Below, one piece after another: positions 3,806 to 42,502 of a DNA stretch of 57,821 nucleotides. The stretch is from Verrucomicrobiota bacterium. Lineage in GTDB: Bacteria; Verrucomicrobiota; Verrucomicrobiia; Limisphaerales; J093. How positions within the stretch are numbered: position 1 is the stretch's first letter; each line of letters begins with the position of its first letter. The notes beneath the pieces were generated by a model. It made no database searches and was not told the DNA's origin. It was given only the letters and a program-made list of their open reading frames with translations. Where the stretch lies: NCBI GenBank assembly GCA_022710935.1, contig JAKLFY010000042.1:1-57821 (forward strand), given 5' to 3'. The translations under genes were made by a program, and so were the position numbers.

Positions 3806-6283
3806 ATGATGCGAAAAACAACGTGGTTCTTCCTGCGGGGCGCCCTGTGCGCCAGCTTGATGTGCGGTGCGGTCCATGCGCAGATTGTAGTCGACGATTT
3901 CGAGTACGCCACCGAGGACGACCTGTTGGCGGCATGGACACCGAGCCCCAACGCGGTGCTCTCGCTTTCGGAGGATGTCTCTTCGCAGTCGACCGGTCTG
4001 AAGGCGATGCGTGTGCAGTTCAACTTCCCGTCCACGGCGTGGGCGACGGAGACGATCAACGGACAACCATTGAGCGAACCCATTGCGATCGGCGACGCGC
4101 AGTACGTCACGCTGCGGGTCAAAGGCGACCCGGTGTTTGCGTCGGCCGATTTCCGGTACTTCTACGTTTACGCGTGGGACGTGTACGGGAACTTCGGGCG
4201 TTGGGGCGCGCCGATTCCGATGACATCCGAATGGGGAGTGTTCAACTTCAGCGCGGGCGGGATTGCGCAGCCCTGGAATTCGCCCGGCCTGCCCGATCTG
4301 ACCCAAATTGTCCAGTTCGCCTTTTATCAGTACGGGAGTCAGGCGGCCATCGACCCCTACACGGCGACCGTCGAGGTGGATGAACTGGCGATCCGGGACG
4401 AACCGTTGACCGAGCCGGTCGTGCCCAAGGAGTTTGTCGTCGAGGCCTTCGAGTACGCGGACGATGCGGCGCTGGGGGCGGCCTGGGTGCCGAGCCCGAA
4501 CACGCTCGTCAGTCTGTCGACCGCTGTGGCCCAGCTTTCGCCGGGCCAGAAGGCGCTGCGCGCCCGGTTGACGTTCCCATCGGGCGAATGGGCGACTCAA
4601 GTGATCCAGGGGCCCGACCTGGCCGCGCCGGTCTCGATCGCGTCCACTCAGTATGTCACGCTGCGGCTCAAGGGCGATTCCGCGTTTGCGGCGGCGGATT
4701 TCCGGGACTTTTATCTGTACGCGTACGACGGAAGCGGCAACTTCGGACGCTGGGGCACGCCGGCTCCCACGACCGCCGACTGGCAGGTGGTCAACTTCAG
4801 CGCCGGCAGCATCGCCAAACCGTGGGATTCCCCTGCCCTGCCCGACCTCGGGAACATCGTCCGGTTCGCGATCTTCCAGTACGGCAGCGAGGCGGCGATC
4901 CCCGAGTACACGGCGACCGTCGAAGTCGATGACATCATGGTCCGGCACACCCCGCTGATCGAGGTCGTGACCAGCGAGTACATGATCGACGATTTCGAGT
5001 ACGCGACGGAGGAGGATCTGCTTGCCGCATGGACCGCGTCGGCGAATTCGTTCGTGGCCACGTCCGATGTCGTCTCCCCCGAGTCCGCGGGCCAGAAGAG
5101 CATGAGCGCGACGTTCAACTTTCCGTCGAGTGCCTGGGTGGTGGAGAACATCCGGGGCAGCTCGTTCGCGACCCCGATCGTGATCGGACCCAAGCAGTAC
5201 GTCACGCTGCGGATCAAAGGCGATCCGGCCTTCGCGACGACTGATTTCCAGAGTTTCTTTGTCTATGCGTTCGACGCGAGCGGCAACTTCGGCCGCTGGG
5301 GTGCGCCGGCGCCCGCGACCGACGACTGGCAAATCCTGAACTTCCTGGCCGGCGACATTGCGCAGCCGTGGGATTCACCGGGCCTGCCTGACCTGGGCCG
5401 GATTGTCCGGATGTCGTTCTTCCAGTACGGCAGCCAGGCGGCGATCGAGCCTTACACGGCGACCATTCTGGTGGACGACCTGATGGTTCGGGACACCCCG
5501 CTGTTTCCCGCGCCGGCGCCTCTCCGGTCGTTGCTCGACGACTTCGAAGGGTACGCCGACACCATCGCGCTCGAGGCCTTCTACACCTATCAAAACAGCC
5601 CCGCCGAGCTCACGTCCACGGCCGCGTCTCTCCTGACACCGGCGCCGCAGGGGAACAAGGGTCTCGAGCTGGGCATCTACTTCGCCGCGGGCCAGTACCC
5701 GTGGGGCAGCGTCCGCTCAGCCATCGTCGAGCCATTCTCGTTCCCCGCCGACGGCGTGGTCACGTTGCGGTTCAAGGGCGACCCGGCGCTGGCCGGGGCG
5801 GCCGATGCAGGGACCTCCTTCTGGCTCACGTTCTACGACCAGGCAGGCGGCGCCGCGAGCTTCGTCACCGACGGCGCCCCCGTTGTCTCCGGGGAATGGA
5901 CCACGCTGGAAGCGCGTCGAAGCGATTTCAGCAACGCGTCGGCCGTGGATTTCGGCAACCTGGTCCAGTGGCGTCTGCTGGTTCAGGCGCGCGAGGGCAC
6001 GGCCGAATCCGAACCGGTCTACGCCGTGTTTTCGCTCGATGATCTGCGAATCGGGACTGAGCCCGCCGCGCCGCCGACACTGTCCGTCGGCCGCGACGGC
6101 AGCTCCATCGTCCTGACCGCGTCGGGCCTGACCGCGGGCAAGGTCTATCGGCTCTCGAGCTCGGCAAACCTGACCCAATGGACGCCTGGCGCCGAAGTCA
6201 CGGCAACGGCCACCACAGCGACCTGGACGGTCCAGCCGACCCAGAACGTCGAGTTCTTCCGCGTTGCGGAGAAAACACCGTAG
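3806..6283 (+). CDS. Secreted protein with four tandem beta-sandwich-like repeats and phylum-type C-terminal domain
   Basis: 825 residues with a signal peptide (about residues 1-25, cut after VHA). Four consecutive repeats of about 183 residues start near residues 27, 211, 394 and 578. Each opens with a DDFEYA-like motif and contains YVTLR.KGDP, FGRWG.P and QYGSQAAI..YTATVEVDD. The first three are close copies, also at DNA level; the fourth is diverged. The pattern recalls CBM11/CIA30-like jelly-roll carbohydrate-binding modules, but I do not recognise a named family. The last 65-70 residues (VYRLSSSANLTQW...EFFRVAE) match a C-terminal domain also found on the 1333-residue and protease-like exported proteins of this window. 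ATG codons at 3806 and 3809 are both possible starts. No catalytic motif is visible. Confidence 0.85.
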   Translation: MMRKTTWFFLRGALCASLMCGAVHAQIVVDDFEYATEDDLLAAWTPSPNAVLSLSEDVSSQSTGLKAMRVQFNFPSTAWATETINGQPLSEPIAIGDAQYVTLRVKGDPVFASADFRYFYVYAWDVYGNFGRWGAPIPMTSEWGVFNFSAGGIAQPWNSPGLPDLTQIVQFAFYQYGSQAAIDPYTATVEVDELAIRDEPLTEPVVPKEFVVEAFEYADDAALGAAWVPSPNTLVSLSTAVAQLSPGQKALRARLTFPSGEWATQVIQGPDLAAPVSIASTQYVTLRLKGDSAFAAADFRDFYLYAYDGSGNFGRWGTPAPTTADWQVVNFSAGSIAKPWDSPALPDLGNIVRFAIFQYGSEAAIPEYTATVEVDDIMVRHTPLIEVVTSEYMIDDFEYATEEDLLAAWTASANSFVATSDVVSPESAGQKSMSATFNFPSSAWVVENIRGSSFATPIVIGPKQYVTLRIKGDPAFATTDFQSFFVYAFDASGNFGRWGAPAPATDDWQILNFLAGDIAQPWDSPGLPDLGRIVRMSFFQYGSQAAIEPYTATILVDDLMVRDTPLFPAPAPLRSLLDDFEGYADTIALEAFYTYQNSPAELTSTAASLLTPAPQGNKGLELGIYFAAGQYPWGSVRSAIVEPFSFPADGVVTLRFKGDPALAGAADAGTSFWLTFYDQAGGAASFVTDGAPVVSGEWTTLEARRSDFSNASAVDFGNLVQWRLLVQAREGTAESEPVYAVFSLDDLRIGTEPAAPPTLSVGRDGSSIVLTASGLTAGKVYRLSSSANLTQWTPGAEVTATATTATWTVQPTQNVEFFRVAEKTP

Positions 6284-11502: not shown

Positions 11503-11700
11503 GACGGCTGAAAATCACAGCAGAACCGCGCCCGCGGCGGAAGCCCGGAGTTGAACCCGCATCCCGGCATGGGACAACAAGAGCCCGCCCCGTCTCACAG
11601 GGTGGGCATGCGAGAGTCACAGACGAACCAGGAATGTAAAGTCCACCAACGAGTCAACCGGGGCTCGCCAGACAGCGTGGCGTTCGGGCAGACTCATGCC

Positions 11701-12597
11701 GTGCGCGCGCGGTCACGGGACAAATGGAAGAATCTGGCAGGGATTGTTCTGCTGCCATTACTACTCTACGCAATGTTGCGCTGGTTCGAGCACAAGCAGG
11801 TCTATCACCCGACCAGGGAATGGATCGAGACGGGGCGCGCCCTGGGGCGTCCCTGGGAAGACCTGCGCTTGCAGACTGCCGACGGCGTGGAGCTGAGCGC
11901 CTGGTTCTTTGCGGCAAATACGAACTCGCCCCGATCGCACCTGGCATCGGTGATCTGCCACGGCAACGGAGGCAACATCAGCCACCGTCTCGACCTCTGC
12001 GAGGCCCTGCTCGGCACCGGCGTCGCCGTCCTCGCCTTTGACTACCGCGGATACGGAAAGAGCGCCGGACGCCCTGGGGAGGAAGGGACTTACCTCGATG
12101 CCCAGGCCGCCCACGCCTGGTTGAGGAAACGCGGCTTCGCAGGCTCGAACATCATCGCCTTCGGCGAATCGCTCGGGGGGGCCGTTGCAGCCGAATTGGC
12201 CAGGCGCGAGCCGCTGGGTGGGCTCATCCTGCAAAGCACCTTCACGAGCATCCCCGACATCGGCGCCGAACTGTTCCCTTGGCTGCCTGTCCGCTGGATC
12301 GCATCAATCCGCTACGACACGCGCCGCAAGCTGCCCGAGTTGGGCGTTCCCCTGCTGATCATGCACAGCCGCGCGGACCGCCTGATTCCCTTTCACCACG
12401 CGGAGGCAAACTTCGCCGCCGCACGCGACCCCAAGCGCCTCTGGGAAATCGCCGGCGATCACAACGATCCCCTCGACGCCGACCACGCCGGTTTCGTGAA
12501 CGGTGTCGAGACTTTGCTGACAGAGACCTTTCCGGGCGCTGTCTTGCCCGAGCCCGGATGTCAGACTCCGCGAGGCTCTATGAAACATCCGGGCTAA
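11701..12597 (+). CDS. Membrane-anchored alpha/beta hydrolase (BEM46/ABHD-like)
   Basis: About 298 residues from the GTG at 11701. The frame is open further upstream (ATG 11608, TTG 11551), but that part has low-quality sequence and no ribosome-binding site. One N-terminal membrane segment (LAGIVLLPLLLYAML) is followed by an alpha/beta hydrolase fold: oxyanion region CHGNGGN, DYRGYGKS, nucleophile elbow GESLGG (Ser), then the acid in HSRADRLIP and the final His in AGDHNDP. The substrate is unknown. The last 24 residues or so (from FPGAVLPEPG to the end) and the stop codon are encoded by palindromic repeat copy D and are not part of the fold. Confidence 0.8.
   Translation: MRARSRDKWKNLAGIVLLPLLLYAMLRWFEHKQVYHPTREWIETGRALGRPWEDLRLQTADGVELSAWFFAANTNSPRSHLASVICHGNGGNISHRLDLCEALLGTGVAVLAFDYRGYGKSAGRPGEEGTYLDAQAAHAWLRKRGFAGSNIIAFGESLGGAVAAELARREPLGGLILQSTFTSIPDIGAELFPWLPVRWIASIRYDTRRKLPELGVPLLIMHSRADRLIPFHHAEANFAAARDPKRLWEIAGDHNDPLDADHAGFVNGVETLLTETFPGAVLPEPGCQTPRGSMKHPG
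12527..12597. repeat. Palindromic repeat, family 2, copy D
   Basis: The palindrome runs from AGCCCGGATG (12551) to CATCCGGGCT (12595) and is preceded by the arm CCTTTCCGGGCGCTGTCTTG. The same palindrome plus arm, in reverse orientation, occurs at 40614-40684. The hydrolase reading frame runs through the whole repeat and takes its TAA from the distal end (GGGCTAA). Confidence 0.85.
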
Positions 12598-12638
12598 CGC
12601 TGCTTGCCTCGCCCTTTCGGTGGTGTACAACGTTCGCC

Positions 12639-14915
12639 ATGCCAACGACCACAAATACCGAAGCGAAGGTGGATGCGCTTCTGGCGGCGAAACTCGGGCT
12701 CACGGAGGGGGAATACGCCTCGATCTGCAAACTCCTGGGGCGGAATCCGAATTTCACGGAACTCGGGCTCTTTTCCGCCATGTGGTCGGAACACTGCAGC
12801 TACAAGAACTCGCGCAAGCTCTTCCGGCTCTTCCCGACCAGGGGCAAGCAGGTGCTCGTCGGCGCCGGGGAGGAAAACACCGGCGTGGTCGATATCGGAG
12901 ACGGCTTCGGCGTCGCCTTCAAGATCGAGTCCCACAATCATCCTTCCGCGGTCGAGCCCTTCGAGGCCTCGGCCACCGGGATCGGGGGATGTCTGCGCGA
13001 CATCTTCACCATGGGCGCCCGACCCGTCGCCGTCCTGGGCTCCCTCCGCTTCGGCAGTCTGTCCAATGACAAGGTGAAGTACCTGTTCAAAGAAGTCATC
13101 CGCGGACTCGCCCATTATGCGAACCAGGCCGAGGTCAATGCCGTCGGCGGCGAGACCTGCTTCGACGAAAGCTACGAGGGCAATCCGCTCGTCAACGCGT
13201 TCGTCGTCGGGATCGTCGAGCGGAAACACATCGTGCGCGGGACCACCGCCGGCCAGGGGAAAGCGGTCTACTACATCGGCGGAGACACAGGCCGCGATGG
13301 CGTCGGGGGCGCAAGCTTCGCTTCCCAGGAAATCACCGAAGAATCCGCCTCCTCGTCGAGCGCGGTCGCCATCGGCAATCCGGCTCTGGGCCGGCGCCTC
13401 CGGGAAGCCTGCCTCGAACTGATCGAGAAGGGGCTGGTGGCCGGCATGCAGGACATGGGAGCCGCGGGCCTGATCTGCTCGACGTGTGAGACGGCCTCGC
13501 GCGGCGGCACAGGCATCGAGTTCGACGTCGCGTTGATCCCCCAACGCGAACCGAACATGACGCCCTACGAGATCCTCCTCTCCGAATCGCAGGAGCGCAT
13601 GATCGCGATCCTCAACGAAGGAAAGGAAGACGACGCGATCGCGATCCTCAAGAGATGGGACGTCCCCGTTGCGCGGATTGGGTCCGTCACCTTGGACGGC
13701 ATGGTCCGAGTCAAACACAACGGCAAGGTGGTGGCCGAGGTGCCGGCCAAGGCCCTCACCGAGAACGCGCCGCTCTACGATCGCCCGACCCAGGAACCCT
13801 CCTATCTGGGCGAGGCCCAACACCTGGCCGTCGCCGAACTCCCGGCGCCCGCCGATTGCAGTGCCGTGCTGCAAGCGCTCCTTGACTCGCCCACCATCGC
13901 CAGCAAGGAAGCCGCCTACCGCAGCTTCACCTTCCGAGAGAAAGACACCGTTCTGTTGGGCGCCGGATCGGACGCTGCGGTGATCCGGGTCCAAGGCGCC
14001 CGCAAGGCCCTGGCGATGAGCGTGGACTGCAATGGCCGCTATTGCTACCTCAACCCCTATCAGGGCGCCATGCTTGCCGTGGCTGAAGCGGCACGCAATG
14101 TCGTCTGCTCCGGCGCCCGACCGCTTGCCATCACCGACGGCCTCAACTTCGGCAACCCGATGAAGCCGGAGAACTACTGGCAGTTCCAGAAATGCATTGA
14201 AGGGCTCGCCGCGGCTTGCCGCGCTCTCGACACGCCCGTGGTCAGCGGCAATGTGAGCTTCTATAATGAGAACCCCAAAGGCCCCGTCGACCCCACACCC
14301 ATCGTCGGAATGGTGGGGTTGATCGAAGACGCCGAGACCTTCGTCACACAGGAATTCAAGGCGGACGGCAACCTCATTGTGCTGTTGGGCACACCCAAGA
14401 GTCGTCTGGACGGCAGCGAATACCTCCACCTCATCCACGGCCTCAAGAAAGGCAATCCCCAAATCGACATCGACTTCGAGAAGTCGGTCCAGAATGCCTG
14501 CCTCGAGGCTATCCAGACCGGACTGGTCCGGAGCGCCCACGACACGTCCGAAGGCGGTCTCGCCGTCTGCCTGGCCGAATCGTGCATCAGCAATCCGCAA
14601 CAGATGCGCGGCGCCCAGATCGACCTGCAAGCCCTGGGGACAGATGGCAGGCGACTCGATGAAATCCTGTTCGGCGAGAGTCCGTCGCGAATCGTCGTCA
14701 CAGTCGATCCCCAGGATCTCCCCCGACTCGAGGCGATCGCCGCCAAACACTCCGTGCCCTGTTTCAAGCTCGGTTCAGTCGGCGGAGACCGCCTTGTGAT
14801 CCAGCACAACGGCTTGAAGGCGATCGATCTCGCTGTCCAGGCCCTGAGCAACACCTGGCGCGGCTCGATCCCCGCCAAAGCCGGCATGGCGCCTCCGCCG
14901 ACCGCTCGCGCGTAG
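12639..14915 (+). CDS. purL: Phosphoribosylformylglycinamidine synthase subunit PurL
   Basis: 758 residues, the normal length of the small-type PurL that converts FGAR to FGAM in purine synthesis together with PurQ and PurS (neither is in the window). Recognisable segments are SEHCSYKNSR near the N-terminus, IESHNHPSAVEPFEASATGIGG (ATP/metal site), GMQDMGAAGL, and the second half with DTSEGGLAVCLAE. I use the ATG at 12639, which gives the family N-terminus; the frame is open further upstream inside the hydrolase gene. It stands alone, read in the same direction as the hydrolase before it and nuoA after it. Its stop is followed within a few bases by AATGCGGGCTAG, a half-site resembling family 1 repeat ends. 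Confidence 0.96.
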   Translation: MPTTTNTEAKVDALLAAKLGLTEGEYASICKLLGRNPNFTELGLFSAMWSEHCSYKNSRKLFRLFPTRGKQVLVGAGEENTGVVDIGDGFGVAFKIESHNHPSAVEPFEASATGIGGCLRDIFTMGARPVAVLGSLRFGSLSNDKVKYLFKEVIRGLAHYANQAEVNAVGGETCFDESYEGNPLVNAFVVGIVERKHIVRGTTAGQGKAVYYIGGDTGRDGVGGASFASQEITEESASSSSAVAIGNPALGRRLREACLELIEKGLVAGMQDMGAAGLICSTCETASRGGTGIEFDVALIPQREPNMTPYEILLSESQERMIAILNEGKEDDAIAILKRWDVPVARIGSVTLDGMVRVKHNGKVVAEVPAKALTENAPLYDRPTQEPSYLGEAQHLAVAELPAPADCSAVLQALLDSPTIASKEAAYRSFTFREKDTVLLGAGSDAAVIRVQGARKALAMSVDCNGRYCYLNPYQGAMLAVAEAARNVVCSGARPLAITDGLNFGNPMKPENYWQFQKCIEGLAAACRALDTPVVSGNVSFYNENPKGPVDPTPIVGMVGLIEDAETFVTQEFKADGNLIVLLGTPKSRLDGSEYLHLIHGLKKGNPQIDIDFEKSVQNACLEAIQTGLVRSAHDTSEGGLAVCLAESCISNPQQMRGAQIDLQALGTDGRRLDEILFGESPSRIVVTVDPQDLPRLEAIAAKHSVPCFKLGSVGGDRLVIQHNGLKAIDLAVQALSNTWRGSIPAKAGMAPPPTARA

Positions 14916-21973: not shown

Positions 21974-24900
21974 GTGAAGACGCATCCATCTCCCATTGCT
22001 TCTCTTCTGTCGGCCACTCCCGGAGTGCTCGTCGTGGCACTGCTCGGGCTGGCCAGCTCCACGGGTCTTCGGGCTCAGCCCGGCGAACCGCCGAAAGCGA
22101 ACCTGCAGCTATGGCTGAAGGCCGATGCAGGGGTGACCAAGGACGCCAGTGACAACGTCACGGGTTGGGCCGACCAATCGGGCCAGAACAACCATGCCGC
22201 GCAGCCGAATGCGGCCCGTGCGCCCAAACTGATCGAGAACGTGCTCAACGGGAATCCTGTTCTCCGATTCGAGGGCGGGACGAAGTACATGGATGTCCCC
22301 AATTCGCCGAGCGTCTCCTTCGTCGGGGATCTGACGACCTTTTTCGTGGTGAAGCTGTCGGACATGAGCGGCTACCGCGCGGTATGGAGCAAGGTCCTGG
22401 GCAACAAGCCGCGGCCGACCGACTACTACTTTTTGCCTGACAGCAACGTCCCGCGGCTCTACCGCGGGAACAGCACCCAATGGCTGAGCGCCGATGGCGC
22501 CGCAGCGGTGCCGTCGGGCCAATTCGCCGTGATTGGCTTCAGCATCGAGGACACCGCGGTCGCGCACTACTTCAACGACCAGGTCAACGGCCGGGGCACG
22601 ATCAGTCTCTTGAACCCTGCCGAGGACAGCGGCCTGCCGCTGCGCATCGGATCGCGCGAGGATCTGGTCACCCAGCTCAAGGGCGACCTCGCGGAATTGC
22701 TGCTCTACGACGCCGCGTTGTCCGAGGCCGACCGGGGCATGGTGATCGATTACCTCCGGGCGAAGTACGGCCTGGCGTTCAACCAGCCACCGTCCGTGCA
22801 GATCACCAGTCCGGCCCCCGGCACCACGGTGGCAGCGTCCAGTTCGGTGGCCATGATGGTCTCGGCCCAAGACCCGGATGGCCAAGTCACACGCGTCGAT
22901 TTCCTGGCGAATGGCATCCCTGTTGCCTCCGCCACACACGCCCCTTACCAATTGAATCTCGACATGCTGACCCCCGGAAAGGCCACTCTGACCGCCATCG
23001 CTCTGGACAATGGTTCTCTGGGCGGCCTGCGGGCCACGTCAGCTCCGGTCGTCGTGAACGTCACAGGCACTTCGCCGTCGGCGCCCGTTTCGGCCGGTCT
23101 GCAGCTTTGGCTTAAGGCCGACGCCGGCGTGACCACCAACGCGAACGGTGCGGTGACCGCGTGGGCCGATCAATCCGGCCAGATGAATGACGCAACGCAG
23201 TATGACGACACGCAGTCGCCGTTCTGGGTTGGCGACGCGGTCAACGGAAAACCCGCCGTGCGCTTCACCGACGCCCCGCAGTACCTCGATGTCGCCAGTT
23301 CCCCCAGCACCGCTCTGGCGGGGGATCTCACCACGTTCGTGGTGTTGAAGGCGGACGATTTCGCGACCTGGCGGGGCATTTGGGCGAAGACGATCGGCGC
23401 GCGCGCCGCGCCGAACGACTATTATCTGAACACGGGAAACGGGGTTGCCGTCGTGTATCGCGCCGACGCAGCGACCACGCCCGCCCAGGGCGTCACCAGC
23501 ACCTTCGCCGTCCCCGCCGGCTCCTATGTGGTCGTGGGTTTCGACATCGCCGGCCAGACGGTCACGCACTATTTGAACGGCGAGGCGGACCGGCCAGGGG
23601 CCATCACGATCGTGCCGGGCGACCTCGGCATGCCGCTGCGCATCGGCTCGCGCGACGATCTGGTCACGCAGATGAAGGGGGAAATGGCTGAGCTGCTCAT
23701 CTACGACGTGGCTCTCACCGGTGCCGACCGGGCCACGGTCGTGAATTACCTGGCGGCCAAGTACGGCATCGCGTTCGTGCGCCTGGGCAACCAGTCGCCC
23801 GTGGCCACGCTCACCAGCCCGGTCGAGGGCGCCAGCTTTGCGTTGCCGGCGACGGCCAGCCTGGCCGCGACTGTGACGGACAGCGACGGCAGCGTCACCA
23901 ATGTGGATTTCGTCGTGAACGGCTCGGTGATCGCCCGCCTCACGGAGAGCCCGTACCAATTGGCGGTGGACCTCCTGTCTCCCGGGTGGGCGACGTTCAC
24001 GGCCATCGCCACCGACAACTGGGGCGCGCGCGGCACCTCGGCGCCCGTCACTGTGCAGATCACCGGCGCGGCGCCCTCGGCCCCGCCTGCGGGTGATCTG
24101 AGCCTCTGGCTCAAAGCCGATGCGGGTGTCACCACCGGCGAAGGCGACTCCGTGCTCGGCTGGAGCGATCAGTCCGGTCAGGGCAACGACGCCAGCCAAT
24201 GGGATCCGGGCGCCGCACCCGTCATCGTGCAGGCTGCGCTCAATGGAAAGCCGGTCCTCCATTTCGACGGCGCCACGCGCTATCTCGAAGTGATGGACTC
24301 GCCGACCGCGACCGTGACAGGCGACCTGACAACCTTCTACGTGGTCAAGTTCGACGATTTTGTCTCCTACCGCGCCGTATGGGCCCAAACGCTGGTCAAT
24401 CTGGCGCGCCCGTTCGATTGCTGGTTTGCACCGGGCACCGGCGTGCCCAACGCCTTTCGCGGCGGCCAGGCCGGCTTCGGGACCGTGGCGGGCGCCGCCG
24501 GCGTGCCGGCCGGAGTCTATGCGGTGGTCGGTCTGGAGGCATCGGGCACGACATTGACGCATTATCTGAACTCACAGCCCAATGGCGGCGGGAGCATCAC
24601 CGCTGTGCCGGAGGGCGCGGGCGTGCCGTTGCGCATCGGCACGCGCGATGATCTTGTCACACAGATGAAGGGCGATATCGCCGAAATCCTGCTTTACGCC
24701 CGCGCGCTGTCGGCGAGCGACCGGACCAATCTGATGACCTATCTGGCGGCCAAATACGGCATCCCTCTGCTGCGGATTGCCAACCAGGCGCCCGCCGTTG
24801 CGCTGGTGAGTCCGACGCCTGGCACGTCGGCGTCCGCGCCGGGCACTCTTGTCCTCGAGGCAACCGCAACCGATGCCGACGGCTCGATTCAACAAATCGA

Positions 24901-25975
24901 GTTCACCGCCAACGACGTCCTGATCGCGTCAGTCGCGACAACGCCCTATCGACTGCCCGTCGAACTGCGCACCCCTGGCGTCGTCGCCTTGAAAGCCATC
25001 GCGACCGACAATTGGGGCGCGCGCAGCACGTCGGCACCGGTCACCCTGACCATTACCGGCACGGGACCGGCGGCCCCGCCGATGGACGGCTTGCAGCTCT
25101 GGCTCAAAGCCGACGCCGGGGTGACCGCTTCCGGCGGGGCGGTGACCGTTTGGGCCGACCAGTCGGGCAATGGCAACGACGCCGCGCAGCCGACCGAGCC
25201 TTACGCTCCGGTCCTGGTCGAAAACGCCGTGAACGGCAAACCCGTGCTGCGTTTTGACGGGGAAACCCAATACCTCGATGTCGCCAGCGCGCCGAGCGTG
25301 GCGATTACCGCCGACATCACCTCGTTCTATGTCGCCAAGTTCGACGATTTCGCGGTCACTCGCACGATCTGGACCAAGTGCGTCGGCGCCAACCCACGCC
25401 CGCGCGATTACTCGGTTGCCGCGGGCACCGGCGTGCCGACCGTATCCCGCGGCACATCCGACGGCAATGCGCCGGTGGCCGCCGCCAGCGGATTCCCCGC
25501 TGGGCAGTACCTGGTCGCCGGCTTCCAGGTCGAGGTGGCGAACGTGATGCACTATCTCTTCGACCAGCCGATCGGCGGCGGCGTGCATGGGTACGGCGCC
25601 GTCGACGAGGGCAGTCCGCTCCGGATCGGGTCGCGCGACGACCTGACGACCTGGATGAAGGGCGACATCAGCGAGATCGTCGTCTACAACCGGGCCTTGT
25701 CCGCGGCCGACCGCGATCTGCTCGTCACCTACCTGGCAAGCAAGTACGGAATGCCCCTGATCCGCCCCGCGACGATTCAGCCGGTCTTGTCGATCGCTCT
25801 CCAGTCCGATGGATTGGTCGTCATTGCGTGGCCTGAAGATCTCTCGGAGTACGGGTTGGAAAGCGCTGACACCCTCGGCACGCCGGCCTGGACACCGGTG
25901 ACCGGCGCGGTCAACAACCGTCTGACCGTGTCGCCAGCCAGCAGCATGAAGTACTACCGCCTGCGAAAACCGTAG
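21974..25975 (+). CDS. Giant exported LamG/Ig-like repeat protein
   Basis: 1333 residues, starting at GTG 21974 with AGGA upstream, and a signal peptide ending near LRAQ. Four copies of a unit of about 333 residues follow, starting near residues 42, 375, 707 and 1038. Each has a concanavalin/LamG-like lectin domain (LQLWLKADAGVT, AWADQSGQ.NDA, PLRIGSRDDL.TQMKGD.AE.L.Y). The first three are followed by an Ig-like bacterial domain (SP..GT...... ATDADGSI..V.F..N). The last 65 residues (YGLESADTLGTPAWTP...YYRLRKP) form the C-terminal domain shared with two other exported proteins here. The likely role is binding of polysaccharides or cell-surface adhesion; no catalytic residues are seen. Confidence 0.88.
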   Translation: MKTHPSPIASLLSATPGVLVVALLGLASSTGLRAQPGEPPKANLQLWLKADAGVTKDASDNVTGWADQSGQNNHAAQPNAARAPKLIENVLNGNPVLRFEGGTKYMDVPNSPSVSFVGDLTTFFVVKLSDMSGYRAVWSKVLGNKPRPTDYYFLPDSNVPRLYRGNSTQWLSADGAAAVPSGQFAVIGFSIEDTAVAHYFNDQVNGRGTISLLNPAEDSGLPLRIGSREDLVTQLKGDLAELLLYDAALSEADRGMVIDYLRAKYGLAFNQPPSVQITSPAPGTTVAASSSVAMMVSAQDPDGQVTRVDFLANGIPVASATHAPYQLNLDMLTPGKATLTAIALDNGSLGGLRATSAPVVVNVTGTSPSAPVSAGLQLWLKADAGVTTNANGAVTAWADQSGQMNDATQYDDTQSPFWVGDAVNGKPAVRFTDAPQYLDVASSPSTALAGDLTTFVVLKADDFATWRGIWAKTIGARAAPNDYYLNTGNGVAVVYRADAATTPAQGVTSTFAVPAGSYVVVGFDIAGQTVTHYLNGEADRPGAITIVPGDLGMPLRIGSRDDLVTQMKGEMAELLIYDVALTGADRATVVNYLAAKYGIAFVRLGNQSPVATLTSPVEGASFALPATASLAATVTDSDGSVTNVDFVVNGSVIARLTESPYQLAVDLLSPGWATFTAIATDNWGARGTSAPVTVQITGAAPSAPPAGDLSLWLKADAGVTTGEGDSVLGWSDQSGQGNDASQWDPGAAPVIVQAALNGKPVLHFDGATRYLEVMDSPTATVTGDLTTFYVVKFDDFVSYRAVWAQTLVNLARPFDCWFAPGTGVPNAFRGGQAGFGTVAGAAGVPAGVYAVVGLEASGTTLTHYLNSQPNGGGSITAVPEGAGVPLRIGTRDDLVTQMKGDIAEILLYARALSASDRTNLMTYLAAKYGIPLLRIANQAPAVALVSPTPGTSASAPGTLVLEATATDADGSIQQIEFTANDVLIASVATTPYRLPVELRTPGVVALKAIATDNWGARSTSAPVTLTITGTGPAAPPMDGLQLWLKADAGVTASGGAVTVWADQSGNGNDAAQPTEPYAPVLVENAVNGKPVLRFDGETQYLDVASAPSVAITADITSFYVAKFDDFAVTRTIWTKCVGANPRPRDYSVAAGTGVPTVSRGTSDGNAPVAAASGFPAGQYLVAGFQVEVANVMHYLFDQPIGGGVHGYGAVDEGSPLRIGSRDDLTTWMKGDISEIVVYNRALSAADRDLLVTYLASKYGMPLIRPATIQPVLSIALQSDGLVVIAWPEDLSEYGLESADTLGTPAWTPVTGAVNNRLTVSPASSMKYYRLRKP

Positions 25976-33309: not shown

Positions 33310-33402
33310 ACGGCCTCGCCGTTGAGGCCCTGCGCACGCAAGCCCGCGGCAACCCCGCGGCTTGCATTGGTGGCGGGTTCGTCTCAATGTGCCGGGCATC
33401 CT

Positions 33403-34641
33403 ATGGATAACACAACGCACCCTGCACACGACCAGACGCCCCAGACGCCTCGAGATGGGCAGACCGTCGCCGGCCAGACCGGAGATTCCCCGGCTGTTCC
33501 CCCTCCCGCCGCGCCGGCTTCGCATGACCGTCCGCAAGGGCAGCCGGCCCCTCCGGTCCTGGGCGCGGTCCCACCCAGGGCGGCTTCGCCCCGACCCCCG
33601 GCGGGCGGGTGGGGTTGGAAGGTGCTGTCGTTGGTACTCCTGTTAGTTCTGCTGTCCATCGCCGTGGCAAGCGTGGGGGGGTGGGTGATCGGATTGATGC
33701 GATCGACCGGCGGGCCGACGCGCGACACAGCGGTCCGGCTCGAGGAGGCTGTGATGGATGATCAAGGAGGGCGGGACAAGGTGGCGGTGATCGACATCGA
33801 GGGGATTATCTTCGGGAGCCTGCTCGGGGGAGGGTCTTCTGGCCCTGTCGAGATGGTGCGCGAGCAACTCAAGCGGGCCGAATCCGACGATGCCGTCAAG
33901 GCGGTCGTGCTCCGCATCGATTCGCCCGGGGGTGAAGTGCTCGCGTCGGACGAGATCAACCGGAGTCTCGCCGAGTTCCAGCAGCGCTCGGGCAAACCGG
34001 TCGTCGCCTCGATGGGGAGCGTGGCGGCCTCGGGAGGTTACTACGTCGCCGCGCCGTGCCGCTGGATTGTTGCCAACCCCCTCACGATCACCGGCAGCAT
34101 TGGCGTCATTATGCACGGCTACAATTACCGCGGCCTGATGAACAAACTCGGCGTGCGGCCTGAGGTCTACAAGAGCGGGCGCTTCAAGGACATGCTCAGT
34201 GGCGACAAGGCGGAGGAGGAGATCCTGCCCGAGGAGCGCGAGATGGTTCAGTCGCTGGTGGACACGACGTTTCGCAGGTTCAAAGAGGTGGTGGCGGAGG
34301 GGCGCCAGAGCCCGTACCGCCTCAGCGAGGACGGCGGGCGCGGGTTGGTCGACAATTGGGAGGATTATGTGGACGGGCGGGTATTCTCGGGCCGGCAGGC
34401 CCATGACTGGGGATTCGTGGATGAACTCGGCAACTTCAAGACGGCCCTGGACCGGGCCAAAACGCTGGCGCAGATCGACCGCGCCAGGATCATCCGCTAC
34501 GAGCAGCCTTTCGAACTGGGCAGTTTGTTTCGGCTGTTTGTCCGCACCGAGACGCCCGCCATCCAGGTCGACCTGGGCATCGAGTTCCCGCCCATCCAGG
34601 CCGGACGCTTGTACTTCCTGTTTCTTCCCGGAACTCCCTAA
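33403..34641 (+). CDS. sppA: Signal peptide peptidase SppA (short, SppA36 type)
   Basis: 412 residues. A long Pro/Gln/Ala-rich cytoplasmic N-terminus (1-70) precedes one membrane anchor (about 73-97) and a ClpP-like serine protease domain. The nucleophile is S210 in SVAASGGYYVAAP and the general base is K257 in EVYKSGRFKD. VVLRIDSPGGEV is the conserved strand-turn. It degrades leftover signal peptides in the membrane. The ATG at 33403 is the first that avoids an Arg/Cys-rich leader. Its stop TAA (34639-34641) is formed by the left end of palindromic repeat copy C. Confidence 0.92.
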   Translation: MDNTTHPAHDQTPQTPRDGQTVAGQTGDSPAVPPPAAPASHDRPQGQPAPPVLGAVPPRAASPRPPAGGWGWKVLSLVLLLVLLSIAVASVGGWVIGLMRSTGGPTRDTAVRLEEAVMDDQGGRDKVAVIDIEGIIFGSLLGGGSSGPVEMVREQLKRAESDDAVKAVVLRIDSPGGEVLASDEINRSLAEFQQRSGKPVVASMGSVAASGGYYVAAPCRWIVANPLTITGSIGVIMHGYNYRGLMNKLGVRPEVYKSGRFKDMLSGDKAEEEILPEEREMVQSLVDTTFRRFKEVVAEGRQSPYRLSEDGGRGLVDNWEDYVDGRVFSGRQAHDWGFVDELGNFKTALDRAKTLAQIDRARIIRYEQPFELGSLFRLFVRTETPAIQVDLGIEFPPIQAGRLYFLFLPGTP

Positions 34642-34710
34642 CCCGCATATTGACACCCCGTCGGTGCACGGGACGGTCCGACCTCGCAGGATGACTGCTA
34701 TGCGGGTTAG
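34638..34710. repeat. Palindromic repeat, family 1, copy C
   Basis: Perfect 11-bp ends: CTAACCCGCAT (34638-34648) and ATGCGGGTTAG (34700-34710). The reverse complement aligns without large gaps to copies A and B. It supplies the sppA stop codon and shares its last two bases with family 2 copy G. Confidence 0.92.
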
Positions 34711-34752
34711 CCCGGTTACGGTTCCTGGCGCCGCCTAAGAAACAACCGGGCT
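34709..34752. repeat. Palindromic repeat, family 2, copy G (variant)
   Basis: AGCCCGGTT (34709-34717) and AACCGGGCT (34744-34752) are perfect inverted ends around a 26-bp centre. The right end contains the stop codon (TAG on the minus strand, 34751-34753) of the convergent methyltransferase. It lies head-to-tail with copy C, so the whole sppA/methyltransferase spacer is repeat. Confidence 0.8.
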
Positions 34753-35467
34753 AATCCCTGCGCGCGACAAGTGCCGCGCAGTTCCACGCCAAAACCTCGC
34801 GCAACACCGGGATCTTCATCAGAGGCCACAGCTCCGTGTAGTAACGGGGAGCCACGGCCACCACATCGAGATGCCGTTGAGCCCGCAGAAGTCGCAGAGT
34901 GCGTCCGATGTGGGTCACGAAGAGATTCTCGAACGGCTTGAGCGCGCGCGGCTTGCCGACCAGTCGGTCGAAGAGCCGCGGACCGAGCCGCGGACCCAGG
35001 TAGTGCCAGGGCGAGAAATCATGTCCCCCCCAGGGTGAAAGCCAGTTGGTCCAGCTCAAATAGAGATGTCCCCCGGGCATCAGCAGGGCTGGAAAGGACC
35101 GGATCAGCCGCTCGGACTCGCGCAGATGCTCGAGGACATTCGAGCAAATCACCAGATCGTGGCGGCCCAGCGAATCAAGCGATTCCGTATCGAGGTTGAG
35201 CCTCCGAAAGGACGTCCGCGGAATCTCCGCAGGCAGCCAATCGCTTTCGTCGGCAAAGGTGACCTTGCATCCCATTTCGAGCAGTCGCTGACCGAACGTG
35301 CCGGAGCCGCACCCCAGATCAAGCGCCGTCGTGCCCTGGCCCATCGCAACGCCGCGGTCCCTGAGCCACCGGATCGCGTCGTCCACCTGCATCCGCGAGA
35401 ACGCATGGTCATATCCGTGTTTGGCGTGATGCACGATGAGCTTGTGCAGAATCATCGGCGCAGACAT
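34751..35467 (-). CDS. Class I SAM-dependent methyltransferase
   Basis: 238 residues from the ATG at 35467 (a GTG one codon upstream is also possible). Motif I is ALDLGCGSGTFGQRLL and the post-I acidic residue follows in VTFADESDW. VICSNVLEHLRESERLIRSF and LLMPGGHLYLSWTNW are the motif II/III region of UbiE/Methyltransf_11-type enzymes. The Trp-rich stretch WLSPWGGHDFSPWHYLGPRLG is often seen in methyltransferases that act on glycolipids or other membrane-near substrates. The substrate is not deducible. It converges on sppA. Confidence 0.85.
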   Translation of the reverse strand: MSAPMILHKLIVHHAKHGYDHAFSRMQVDDAIRWLRDRGVAMGQGTTALDLGCGSGTFGQRLLEMGCKVTFADESDWLPAEIPRTSFRRLNLDTESLDSLGRHDLVICSNVLEHLRESERLIRSFPALLMPGGHLYLSWTNWLSPWGGHDFSPWHYLGPRLGPRLFDRLVGKPRALKPFENLFVTHIGRTLRLLRAQRHLDVVAVAPRYYTELWPLMKIPVLREVLAWNCAALVARRD

Positions 35468-35546
35468 CACCAGAAAGTGCCCTCATCGCCAATCCCAATT
35501 CTCTCCGGGCTTGGCGAGGGCCGGATCCGGCATTACACTCAACCGC

Positions 35547-39162: not shown

Positions 39163-40521
39163 TCAGTTGGGATTCGGGATGGGTGGATCGGCGTACAGGG
39201 TGAATGCCGAGGCGCGATTGATTCGAACATCCAGCAGTTGGCCGATCAGCCGCAGTGGGCCGTCAAAGACGGTGATCTGGTTTCCGCGCGTGCGTCCTTC
39301 GAGCCGCTCCTTGTTCCTGCGGCTCAGTCCCTCGACGAGGATCTGCACCCGGCGGTTCACCATGCCCTGGAGCTTCCGCGCCGCGATCGCGTTGATCGCT
39401 TCGAGCAATCGGGCCAACCGCTCTTCACGCACCTGTTGGGGGACCTGATCGGGCCGTGTCGCCGCCGGCGTATCTCTCCGGGGCGAGTACTTGAACAGAA
39501 AGGCATTGTCGAACTCGACGTCCCGCGCCAACGCCATCGTGTCTTCGAAATCCTCCTCGGTCTCCCCAGGGAAACCGACGATCAGGTCCGTCGTGATGCT
39601 GATCTCCGGACGGACGCGGCGGAGCCGGTCAACAAGGTCGAGGTAGCGCCCGCGGGTGTAGCCGCGGCGCATCGTCCGGAGCACGCGATCACTGCCGCTT
39701 TGGGCCGGCAGATGGGCGTTCTCGCACAGTTTCTCGAGCCGCCCATAGGCCTGCACCAGATCGTCGCCGTACCCTTTGGGGTGGGGCGATGTGAACCGGA
39801 TGCGCTCAAGGCCGTCAACGGCGTTCACCGCCTCGAGCAACTGCACGAAGGGTGTGACACCGTTCCGCACCGGGATCTCCCGTCTGCCGTAACTGGTGAC
39901 GATCTGGCCGAGCAGGGTAACCTCTCTCACCCCTCGAACCGTCAGGTCGCGGCACTCGGCCACGATATCGTCGATCGTCCGGCTTCGCTCTGCGCCCCGT
40001 GTGTGCGGGACAATGCAGAAGCTGCAGTGTTGATTGCAGCCCTGCATGATGCTGACAAACGCCTTTGGAGATGCTGCCGCGGTGCCCGGCGAAAAGACGT
40101 GGTCGCGAAGAACCGCCTGGCTGCCACAATCCGAGGCCGTGTCGCAAACGCTCTGGCAGCGGCCGGCCAGCAGGTCATCAACGCACTCCGGTGCGCGGTG
40201 GAGTTTCTGGGTGCCAAGGACAAGGGTCACGCCCTGGTTGCGATCGAGCAGTTGTTCGCCGCGACTCTGAGCCATGCAGCCCAGGTAGCCCAGCAGGACG
40301 CGCGGACGCTCCCTGCGCACGGTGCCAGCCAGGGCGGCCATCTTGCCCAGCGCCTTCTGCTCCGCCGCGTCTCGAACACTGCACGTGTTGAGCAGGATCA
40401 CGTCGGCCGTCGCCTCCGAGGGGGCGAGGGTGTAGCCGTGCGCGACGAACCGGGCGGCGACTGCTTCCGAGTCGCGCTCGTTCATCTGGCATCCGTAGGT
40501 CTTGATGAATACGCTGGGCAT
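39163..40521 (-). CDS. miaB: tRNA-2-methylthio-N6-dimethylallyladenosine synthase MiaB
   Basis: 452 residues. The order is the UPF0004 domain (FIKTYGCQMNERDSE, NTCSVRDAAEQKALG, LGYLGCMAQSRG, with the three Cys of the auxiliary cluster), the radical-SAM domain (MQGCNQHCSFCIVPHTRG, CxxxCxxC), and a C-terminal TRAM domain (RRVQILVEGLSRRNKERLEGRT). HLPAQSGSDRVLRTMRRGYTR is typical. MiaB adds methylthio to i6A37 in tRNAs reading UNN codons. Residues just after the first domain (CDTASDCGSQAV) differ from the usual spacing but look tolerable. Confidence 0.95.
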   Translation of the reverse strand: MPSVFIKTYGCQMNERDSEAVAARFVAHGYTLAPSEATADVILLNTCSVRDAAEQKALGKMAALAGTVRRERPRVLLGYLGCMAQSRGEQLLDRNQGVTLVLGTQKLHRAPECVDDLLAGRCQSVCDTASDCGSQAVLRDHVFSPGTAAASPKAFVSIMQGCNQHCSFCIVPHTRGAERSRTIDDIVAECRDLTVRGVREVTLLGQIVTSYGRREIPVRNGVTPFVQLLEAVNAVDGLERIRFTSPHPKGYGDDLVQAYGRLEKLCENAHLPAQSGSDRVLRTMRRGYTRGRYLDLVDRLRRVRPEISITTDLIVGFPGETEEDFEDTMALARDVEFDNAFLFKYSPRRDTPAATRPDQVPQQVREERLARLLEAINAIAARKLQGMVNRRVQILVEGLSRRNKERLEGRTRGNQITVFDGPLRLIGQLLDVRINRASAFTLYADPPIPNPN

Positions 40522-40849
40522 CGAGTCAAGGCGGGCCGCACCGTACGGCAGTCCACCGGCGATGAAAAGCGGGAAGTCGCAGCCCTGGCAGTTCTCACTT
40601 TGCGTGCAGGGCCTTAGCCCGGATATTTCATAAGGCTTCGCAGAGTTTCATATCCGGGCTGTGGCAAAACCGCGCCCGGAAAGGAAATCAAGAGCATTCT
40701 GTCAGTCGTGAAGGCATTCTGCCATCGGAACAGTATGGTGCGTCTCTCTGACTCTCGGACCCGGCGCGGTTCTGCTTTTCTAACCCGCATAGCAGTCACC
40801 TTGCGAAGTCTGACTGCGATGTGCACAGACGGGGCGTGAAATATGCGGG
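40522..40849. other. Spacer made largely of palindromic repeats
   Basis: The 328 bp between miaB and the Gfo/Idh gene contain family 2 copy E (40614-40684) and family 1 copy B (40780-40853). The two are bridged by a further inverted pair, AACCGCGCC (about 40669) and GGCGCGGTT (about 40763). Minus-strand codons across copy E read FPGAVLPQPGYETLRSLMKY, nearly the same peptide as the tail of the alpha/beta hydrolase at 12.5 kb. This is a repeat translation and not a gene. The remaining 90 bp next to miaB presumably hold its promoter. Confidence 0.65.
40614..40684. repeat. Palindromic repeat, family 2, copy E
   Basis: AGCCCGGAT (40616-40624) and ATCCGGGCT (40652-40660) flank a centre with TTCATAAGGCTTCGCAGAGT, followed by the arm CAAAACCGCGCCCGGAAAGG. 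It is the reverse-complement partner of copy D (12527-12597). Confidence 0.88.
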
Positions 40850-40853
40850 TTAG
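40780..40853. repeat. Palindromic repeat, family 1, copy B
   Basis: Perfect 11-bp ends CTAACCCGCAT (40780-40790) and ATGCGGGTTAG (40843-40853), with an inner perfect stem GCAGTCA/TGACTGC around a 12-nt loop, so it can fold as a cruciform or a compound hairpin. Its right end provides the TAA stop (40850-40852) of the minus-strand Gfo/Idh gene. Confidence 0.92.
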
Positions 40854-42202
40854 CCAAGGCGCCAGCCCTCGCGGTACTCGCGATGTGTGAGTTGCTGGGC
40901 GCGGTCGTTGTTCAGGATGCGTCCGGAGACGATGTCGTAATCGAGTGGGCCCTCGACGAGGGTGGCGAGATTGGCCAGTTGCATAAGTTCGGTCATCGGA
41001 CCGCCGATCTCGAACGGCGAGAAGGGTGTGCCCTCTCCTTTGCAGGCCTGGACCCATTCCCGGTGATGGCCGGTGGGCTTGGGCAGGACCTGGGGCGGCC
41101 CGGCTTTCACATCCGTGAATCGGTTTTCAGGCAACAGGGTGAACCGCGTATTCCACGGACACTCGGAGTAAATCGAACCCTTGGCGCCGACCAGGAGATC
41201 GCCCCAACCCTGCTGCGGATACCCCAGCATCAAGTCGACCGGCGGTTTCTCCTTGGCCCACATCGTCAGTTTGACCGGAGGCAGCTCCCCGCGAGCCGGC
41301 AGGTCGAGGGTGATGCGGGAAGAGCTCGGGTAGCCTTCGACGTTCCGCTCCGAGGGATGGGCCTCGACGCGCACGATCAGAGGCGCGGGGGACGCCGAGC
41401 GTGGCGCATTCCATAGGTCATTCAGACGCAGGGCGCGGAACATGAGGTTGGCCGTATGACAGCCGAAGTCGCCCACGATGCCGCTGCCGAAAGCGCGCCA
41501 ACCGCGCCAGCTCCCGGGCAGGTAACTGGGATGATAGGGGCGGGCCTCGGCCGGGCCGAGCCAGAGATCCCAACTCAACGTGGCCGGGACGGGCGGCGTG
41601 TCGGCAGGACGTTCGAGCGGGCCGTTGCCGCCATCGAACCAGACATGCGCCTCGCGGACCTCGCCGATGGCGCCGCCCAGGACCAGTTCGGCGCCGCGTC
41701 GCAAGCCGTCGCTTGCCGAGCCTTGGTTCCCCATCTGGGTGGCCACTTTCATCGCGAGCGCGGTTTCGCGCATGACCCTCGCTTCGCGGACGGTGCGAGT
41801 CAGCGGCTTCTCGCAATAGACATGCTTCTTTCGCAGCATGGCGTCGACGGCGGCAACCGCATGGGTGTGGTCGGGCGTCGCGACCATGACGGCATCGATG
41901 TCCGCATCAGCCTCATCGAGCATGCGGCGGTAGTCGGTGAAGCGCCGCGCCTTCGGATGCTTCTGGTAGATGTCTCCGGCGCGGACCTGATCGACGTCGC
42001 ACAGGGCCACGAGATTCTCGCCCAGGCCGGCGAGAGCGTCGAGATTGCCCCGTCCCTGGCCGCCGACGCCGATGCCTGCAATGTGAAGTTTGCTGTTGGC
42101 TGTCGTGCCAAAGGCCAGCTTGGGATTGGACAGGATCAAGAGACCGGTTCCACCCAAGAACGAGGAGCGCAGAAAGGCGCGTCGGGACCCAGCGTGTGTC
42201 AT
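40850..42202 (-). CDS. Tat-exported Gfo/Idh/MocA-family oxidoreductase
   Basis: 450 residues from the ATG at 42202. A twin-arginine signal (SRRAFLRSSFLGGTGLLILS) leads into a Rossmann NAD(P)-binding domain with GIGVGGQGRGNLDAL. VMVATPDHTHAVAAVDAML and KHVYCEKPLTRTVREARVM, with the catalytic-type EKP, are typical. The C-terminal part holds WDLWLGPAEARPYHP and GSGIVGDFGCHTANLMFRAL. Exported Gfo/Idh proteins are abundant in Verrucomicrobia and Planctomycetes and are thought to act on sugars or their derivatives in the periplasm. The substrate is unknown. Its stop codon lies in repeat copy B. Confidence 0.92.
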   Translation of the reverse strand: MTHAGSRRAFLRSSFLGGTGLLILSNPKLAFGTTANSKLHIAGIGVGGQGRGNLDALAGLGENLVALCDVDQVRAGDIYQKHPKARRFTDYRRMLDEADADIDAVMVATPDHTHAVAAVDAMLRKKHVYCEKPLTRTVREARVMRETALAMKVATQMGNQGSASDGLRRGAELVLGGAIGEVREAHVWFDGGNGPLERPADTPPVPATLSWDLWLGPAEARPYHPSYLPGSWRGWRAFGSGIVGDFGCHTANLMFRALRLNDLWNAPRSASPAPLIVRVEAHPSERNVEGYPSSSRITLDLPARGELPPVKLTMWAKEKPPVDLMLGYPQQGWGDLLVGAKGSIYSECPWNTRFTLLPENRFTDVKAGPPQVLPKPTGHHREWVQACKGEGTPFSPFEIGGPMTELMQLANLATLVEGPLDYDIVSGRILNNDRAQQLTHREYREGWRLG

Positions 42203-42502
42203 AGGCGGACCAGTGAACTGGAACCACACACGGCGTCAATGTCGAATGTGCCCATCGAATTCGTAATTCGCGTCCATGAACTGGCGCTCGTCTGGTCATT
42301 TGCCCTTGACTTTTCATCGCCAGGATGTAGCTGTTCCACAACGTCTTTTTCCCAAGGAGTCCAGCATGCGACACCATGCGGATGCCACCATTGGTCAGCA
42401 GAGTCTGATCCACCGCCAGGCGCGTCCTTCCGGGGCAGTGGAACGGGGCAGGCGGCCAACCTGGCATCTTTGCGGGCGCGCACCATCACCACAGGCCGTC
42501 CC
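42203..42502. other. Divergent promoter region
   Basis: 300 bp between the divergent Gfo/Idh and protease-like genes. Small frames here carry no recognisable protein. Promoters for both genes must lie in it, but I cannot name boxes with confidence. The first usable start of the plus-strand gene is the ATG at 42503. Confidence 0.5.

Follow-up and report, generated by a model that had tools for sequence, protein, structure and literature searches.

The terminal tetranucleotide of REPs is GTAG, with GYAG and GTGG known as variants. REPs are short imperfect palindromes that occur in tens to hundreds of copies per genome, mostly between genes, and are associated with a Y1/HUH transposase gene (RAYT); BIMEs consist of REPs in alternating orientation with conserved spacers, and MITEs of 70-300 bp carry terminal inverted repeats (TIRs), have no coding capacity and come with target-site duplications. 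GTAG REPs are abundant in the verrucomicrobium O. terrae (PMC3733652), and a REP of Pseudomonas mendocina reads GTAGCCCGGATGCAATCCGGG (PMC2817692). In E. coli, TnpAREP cleaves at CT beside REPs and requires the GTAG motif (PMC8266576). In Coxiella burnetii, an indel links enhC to the QMITE2 copy behind it, providing a 33-residue repeat-encoded tail and the stop (PMC5896051). Both halves of the case described here, i.e., tails of the enhC/QMITE2 type and REP ends supplying TAG stops, are already published in other bacteria.

The gene analyzed here lies in a window of 57,821 nucleotides, the whole stretch of DNA under study, which is contig C197 of a Verrucomicrobiota genome (order Limisphaerales) of 7.5 Mb in 259 contigs (labeled G000). 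The ORF 11551-12597 (+) encodes an alpha/beta hydrolase (Pfam Hydrolase_4, 1.4e-17; Abhydrolase_1, 2.5e-12); it opens at TTG 11551, orthologues align only from about position 11722, and its C-terminus reads ...ETFPGAVLPEPGCQTPRGSMKHPG or, as a longer stretch, ...VETLLTETFPGAVLPEPGCQTPRGSMKHPG before the stop. Copy D of a dispersed repeat (12527-12597) encodes the last residues, FPGAVLPEPGCQTPRGSMKHPG, together with the TAA stop. It is well supported that the tail (about the last 22 codons) and the stop of the hydrolase are repeat DNA. A sequence-only reading of the window had regarded the terminal residues (FPGAVLPEPGCQTPR) as the translation of this copy, which held. The span it had assigned to the repeat, 12520-12597, was right at its right end, and the left end had to be moved to 12527.

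The predicted fold of the hydrolase stops exactly at the left boundary of the repeat. In an AlphaFold2 model of the residues from 11722 (25 aligned sequences, mean pLDDT of 92.6), the pLDDT was 97 for residues 261-270 and then 73, 63 and 65, and the residues past 269 were modeled as low-confidence coil. Upstream of the repeat lie, in the orthologue alignment, both the GESLGG nucleophile motif and the conserved residues D219 and H247. Across the final 60 nt of the gene, codon usage was non-coding-like according to the codon-usage score. The coordinates of the features are given in Table 1.

Table 1. Features of the hydrolase-purL locus and of repeat copies D and E in the window.
Feature	Position	Strand	Basis
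Alpha/beta hydrolase, conserved part to repeat-borne stop	11722-12597	+	Pfam; orthologue alignment from ~11722
Fold end, with model residue 269 closing the last predicted helix	codon 12526-12528	+	AlphaFold2
Right-end remnant of the 112-bp inverted-repeat (MITE-like) module, CCTTTCCGGGCGCTGTCTTGCCC	12527-12549	+	register with full-length copies
REP-like hairpin (hairpin B) of copy D, encoding EPGCQTPRGSMKHPG and stop in the hydrolase frame	12550-12597	+	covariance model, 72 bits, E 7.8e-16
Left stem arm of copy D hairpin B, AGCCCGGATGT	12551-12561	+	sequence, fold
Right stem arm of copy D hairpin B, ACATCCGGGCT	12585-12595	+	sequence, fold
Hydrolase stop codon TAA, the final three repeat bases	12595-12597	+	
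purL (phosphoribosylformylglycinamidine synthase), right-hand gene in both species	12639-14915	+	AIRS, AIRS_C and FGAR-AT_linker domains
Copy E hairpin B (intergenic)	40614-40661	-	covariance model, 69.9 bits
112-bp module of copy E with 13-bp TIRs, GCARAACCGCGCC	40664-40775	-	TIR matches 40664-40676 and 40763-40775
Copy E hairpin A, whose first TAA serves as stop of gene 40850-42229 (-)	40780-40852	-	sequence, gene call

A whole-genome search with window 12500-12620 as query yielded 34 further sites with E < 1e-3, the best of which were 86-89% alike over 66-71 nt. Nearly all long matches begin at query base 28 (12527) and end at bases 96-98 (12597); since they share start and end points, the repeat boundaries are not due to chance. 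Alignment of the copies in a common orientation revealed a shared 48-nt hairpin, (C/G)AGCCCGGATGTGAGACTCCGCGAAGCTTTATGAAACATCCGGGCTAA, termed hairpin B. RNA folding of 12527-12600 gave -32.6 kcal/mol (z of -2.9), and this segment forms an inverted pair with 40611-40684 (-), 82% alike over 74 nt. The latter belongs to copy E (40611-40852, minus strand), which is a complete element, whereas copy D keeps just the right 23 nt of the module and hairpin B. As the sequence-only reading had noticed, a similar peptide can be read from copy E: translated in the same frame it gives FPGAVLPQPGYETLRSLMKYPG and a stop, in a gene-free spacer flanked by two minus-strand gene calls, 39163-40521 and 40850-42229. 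A search of Rfam returned no match at the repeat.

The longer copies consist of a second hairpin (e.g., hairpin A, TAACCCGCATA...TATGCGGGTTAG), followed by a 112-bp module and hairpin B. The module is bounded by the terminal inverted repeats GCAAAACCGCGCC / GGCGCGGTTTTGC, a pattern with 138 matches as compared to 8 with the reversed control, and a few of 38 copies deviate from 112 bp, ranging from 109 to 123 bp. Its interior splits into at least two unlike groups, while its ends and near-fixed length are conserved (G000, e.g., L161-L182), and hairpin types are swapped between copies. Thus, the element is built as a BIME-type mosaic. Hairpin A, module and hairpin B follow one another in many copies, as in BIMEs, and by its 13-bp TIRs, size and lack of coding capacity the module is MITE-like. 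Opposite-orientation hairpins, a fixed spacer and mosaic module exchange are shared with BIME/REPIN composites, but the spacer here is a 112-bp segment with its own terminal inverted repeats. A single match to the module inverted repeat (GCAGAACCGCGCC) was also seen at window 11520-11532, between the hydrolase ORF and the divergent gene. The window further contains long genes at 3806-6283 and 21974-25975 that repeat internally with periods of about 549 bp and about 995 bp (direct-repeat families D1-D6).

With a covariance model, 106 copies of hairpin B were detected in G000 and 74 in the genome of a sister species, G001 (E <= 0.1 each), but at E <= 0.001, among 116 sampled genomes of the order, no more than 3 contained it. 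Given the many copies in these two genomes and the few genomes of the order that contain any, hairpin B is a genus-restricted dispersed repeat. Most of the 89 sampled copies lie outside called genes or at gene ends, so that hairpin B agrees with REPs in length, palindromic structure, copy number and location. It usually ends in TTAG, with CTAG or TCAG as less frequent motifs; the TAG core is common with GTAG, and the first base differs. No Y1_Tnp gene was found within about 100 bp of hairpin B among 12 Y1_Tnp matches in G000, the nearest being about 1 kb away (L068), and movement of hairpin B by a nearby RAYT received no support. Since the first base of the tetranucleotide differs and no adjoining RAYT gene was found, the hairpins are named REP-like. 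One Y1_Tnp gene (RAYT-like, L062) has different palindromes of its own, GGTAGCCGGTGGTCGG...CCGACCACCGG, on its 5' side.

Like GTAG-tagged REPs, including those of O. terrae, these hairpins are short palindromes whose terminal tetranucleotide includes TAG (PMC3733652); unlike them, they end in TTAG or CTAG, have a longer loop and are tied to the 112-bp inverted-repeat module. The stem, TAGCCCGGATG...CATCCGGG, is nearly the same as that of the P. mendocina REP, but the loop is much longer here, and no REP-associated transposase gene was found adjoining the repeat. Rickettsia palindromic elements (RPE) are likewise dispersed palindromes that end up translated in proteins; however, RPEs lie in frame inside proteins, while the hairpins here are mostly at or behind the stop. 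By analogy, cleavage by TnpAREP is a plausible model for how the hairpins here move, and they most likely spread as REP/BIME-type elements via an HUH (Y1) transposase.

The origin of the hydrolase tail was addressed by comparison of orthologues. Among about 35 orthologues from outside the genus, some of their genomes being represented twice, none has the FPGAVLP peptide. Conservation in them extends to the position of ETLLTE, beyond which come short, variable and often P/A/T-rich tails. Hence, repeat-free orthologues sharing the tail, which would have marked it as native to the protein, were not found outside the genus. G001 was the only genome of the same genus compared with G000. The upstream neighbor, the hydrolase and purL have the same order in both genomes, purL being syntenic at 94% identity. 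The hydrolase orthologue of G001 shows 88.6% protein identity and ends in ETFP-VQATRPGREDGTGPAPSVTTP before its own TGA stop. Hairpin B is also present in G001, 60 nt past this stop (G001:C73:15842-15889, E 8.5e-13), and is followed by purL. Between the hydrolase-purL spacers of the two genomes, 40 of 48 hairpin positions are identical, as are 39 of the 44 positions of the right flank, from the hairpin to the purL ATG. From GAGACC, the codons for ET, to the hairpin, the distance is 27 nt in G000 versus 138 nt in G001, i.e., a difference of 111 nt.

In view of the common right junction, a single insertion of the hairpin into the spacer most likely preceded the split of the two lineages. The positions of gene, stop and repeat in the two genomes suggest that in the lineage of the window a deletion onto the pre-existing repeat probably fused the hydrolase to the hairpin. 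The ancestor would have had the hydrolase with a native tail of about 21 residues, its stop, the repeat (module end and hairpin B) and purL. A deletion from the gene end to the right end of the module, net 111 nt relative to G001, would then have occurred in the window's lineage, likely guided by microhomology between CCTTTCC at the module end and the near-identical CCTTCCC of the G001 gene. Of the forward frames of the hairpin only one is fully open; translation would now follow it and stop at the repeat-terminal TAA. Most likely, the protein tolerates the new tail as a disordered appendage, predicted to be without specific function.

The comparison also bears on how the stop was replaced. 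According to the sequence-only reading, an inserted repeat had extended the protein and replaced its stop. However, 20 residues follow ETFP in G000 and 21 in G001; probably, a native 21-residue tail was swapped for one of 20 residues and the protein was not lengthened. Insertion as the route of stop replacement likewise disagrees with the repeat of G001, which has the same right junction and lies beyond the native TGA. An ancestral stop had been proposed near 12520; it would instead have been located about 20 codons further on. As for enhC and QMITE2, a repeat behind the gene is common to two strains or species, and an indel in one of them would have fused gene and repeat; the tail and stop are in repeat DNA here, and the native stop is kept in G001. 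The locus differs from enhC/QMITE2 in repeat family and phylum, and here the new tail, of 20 residues, would have taken the place of an equally long native one. The hydrolase-purL pair was not found within the 1.5-4 kb of flank at orthologue loci from outside the genus, so no outgroup polarises the deletion; its direction is read from the nature of the tails in two genomes, G000 and G001. A separate observation concerns purL, whose frame is open upstream through the repeat to TTG 12279 (window 12279-12638); a gene caller could assign PurL a false, partly repeat-encoded N-terminal extension.

Several other histories of the junction were weighed against the deletion. That the repeat jumped directly into the 3' end of the hydrolase in the window's lineage and replaced the stop would match filled and empty sites of this kind elsewhere in G000, e.g., in the MetH-like gene described below, but it is unlikely, as G001 has the same hairpin and right junction before purL and an independent insertion there would be a coincidence. 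Alternatively, the fused form may be ancestral, with G001 having later gained about 111 nt together with a new tail and stop. Something was indeed gained in the G001 spacer, since L032:2383-2429, between the hydrolase stop and the hairpin, belongs to a further dispersed repeat (GGGCCGGGTGCCCTCACCCGGGGGCGAGG) found in both genomes. This repeat-like piece sits behind the stop, though, and for the 63 nt encoding the G001 tail no repeat match reached a convincing score; moreover, this tail is P/A/T-rich and ends in P, as in the family members G003, G012 and G002, which renders an ancestral fusion improbable. The history of the G001 spacer itself is not simple, given the other repeat, of which it holds a piece, and the lack of a recognisable 112-bp module; the idea that it represents a decayed module received no support from profile tests.

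The tail could also have been retained for some benefit, acting as a degradation tag or solubility tail or, through the hairpin, slowing ribosomes at the message end. REPs within 15 nt of a stop were reported to stall E. coli ribosomes (discussed in PMC12306157), and the hairpin of copy D is stable, as judged by its z value. With tails unconserved across orthologues, non-coding-like codon use in the segment and its prediction as low-confidence coil, a retained benefit is nevertheless very unlikely. Finally, the assembly of this metagenome-assembled genome might have joined unrelated pieces at the repeat, since repeats are common misassembly points and the estimated contamination is 4.3%. Such an artefact appears extremely unlikely in light of the gene order, which is the same in G001 on either side of the junction, and of the length of the repeat, which at 71 nt is shorter than ordinary reads. 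Thus, the deletion onto a pre-existing repeat is the preferred explanation of the hydrolase tail.

Other protein ends encoded by the repeats were found by comparing the two genomes; gene calls in this hairpin survey were made with a simple codon-usage score trained on the window and no standard gene finder. A MetH-like protein, named from its sequence by eye without a family search, ends in LNYE-SPDARLREA in G000 versus LNYE-AA in G001 (L019/L263). Its gene end carries a hairpin inserted into an otherwise aligned site, filled in G000 and empty in G001, so that the insertion mechanism proposed for the hydrolase in the sequence-only reading is seen directly at another gene of the same genome. 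A second protein ends in RYRIES-PRHQMTRSGVKCPG in G000 versus RYRIES-G in G001 (L259/L265), with the hairpin in the same frame as in the hydrolase. One orthologue pair ends in GPDVS from the hairpin reverse strand in both species. In an RNase PH-like protein (named by eye; L254/L270), the TAG of the hairpin lies a few codons before the G001 stop position, and the protein end is both shortened and changed.

The consensus of hairpin B stops translation in all three forward and two of three reverse frames. In 12 of 89 distinct sampled copies, the stop of a convergent gene falls exactly on the terminal TTAG, which is by far the commonest single offset. Most of these genes end at the same codon in the other species, mostly TAG, and there the sites either have no hairpin or have a different hairpin-type sequence on the same TAG. 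One clean example of an empty site is the end of a permease-like gene (L255/L264). The finding of different hairpin families at one TAG in two species fits the stop codon as a target of Y1/HUH transposition, and the repeats may settle beside TAG stops, their terminal TTAG containing one.

The association was quantified in 400 kb per genome (L321-L360), chosen regardless of repeats, by counting the repeat-type starts CCCG, CGCG, CGAG and CCTG directly after stop codons. In G000, such starts followed 16 of 51 TAG stops (31%) versus 4 of 131 TGA stops (3%; Fisher P = 4e-7), and in G001 14 of 69 versus 6 of 120 (P = 0.0014), P values that are optimistic because the four tetranucleotides were picked after the hairpin families and TAG flanks had been seen. 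For CCCG alone, the start of hairpin B, the counts were 9/51 versus 1/131 in G000 (P = 5e-5) and 7/69 versus 4/120 in G001 (P = 0.06). Tentatively, and with some doubt, it may be that in this genus several families of REP-like hairpins land on TAG stops, that about a third of TAG-ended genes border a repeat and that C-termini have been rewritten repeatedly. In the window itself, two different back-to-back hairpins lie between convergent genes at 34639-34755, and this one array supplies both stops: gene 33322-34641 (+) stops at the TAA that comes first in the left hairpin, and gene 34751-35470 (-) takes its TAG stop from the TTAG with which the right hairpin ends. A literature search returned nothing direct on stop codons as targets of Y1 transposases.

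The hydrolase itself is an ordinary enzyme. Its locus offers a clean comparative case of small repeats rewriting bacterial protein ends, in which the likely intermediate, a repeat behind the native stop, is still present in the sister species. What most deserves following up is the connection of hairpins with TAG stops: hairpins that abut these stops, from different families in each species, provide a concrete test of the stop codon as a target of REP movement.
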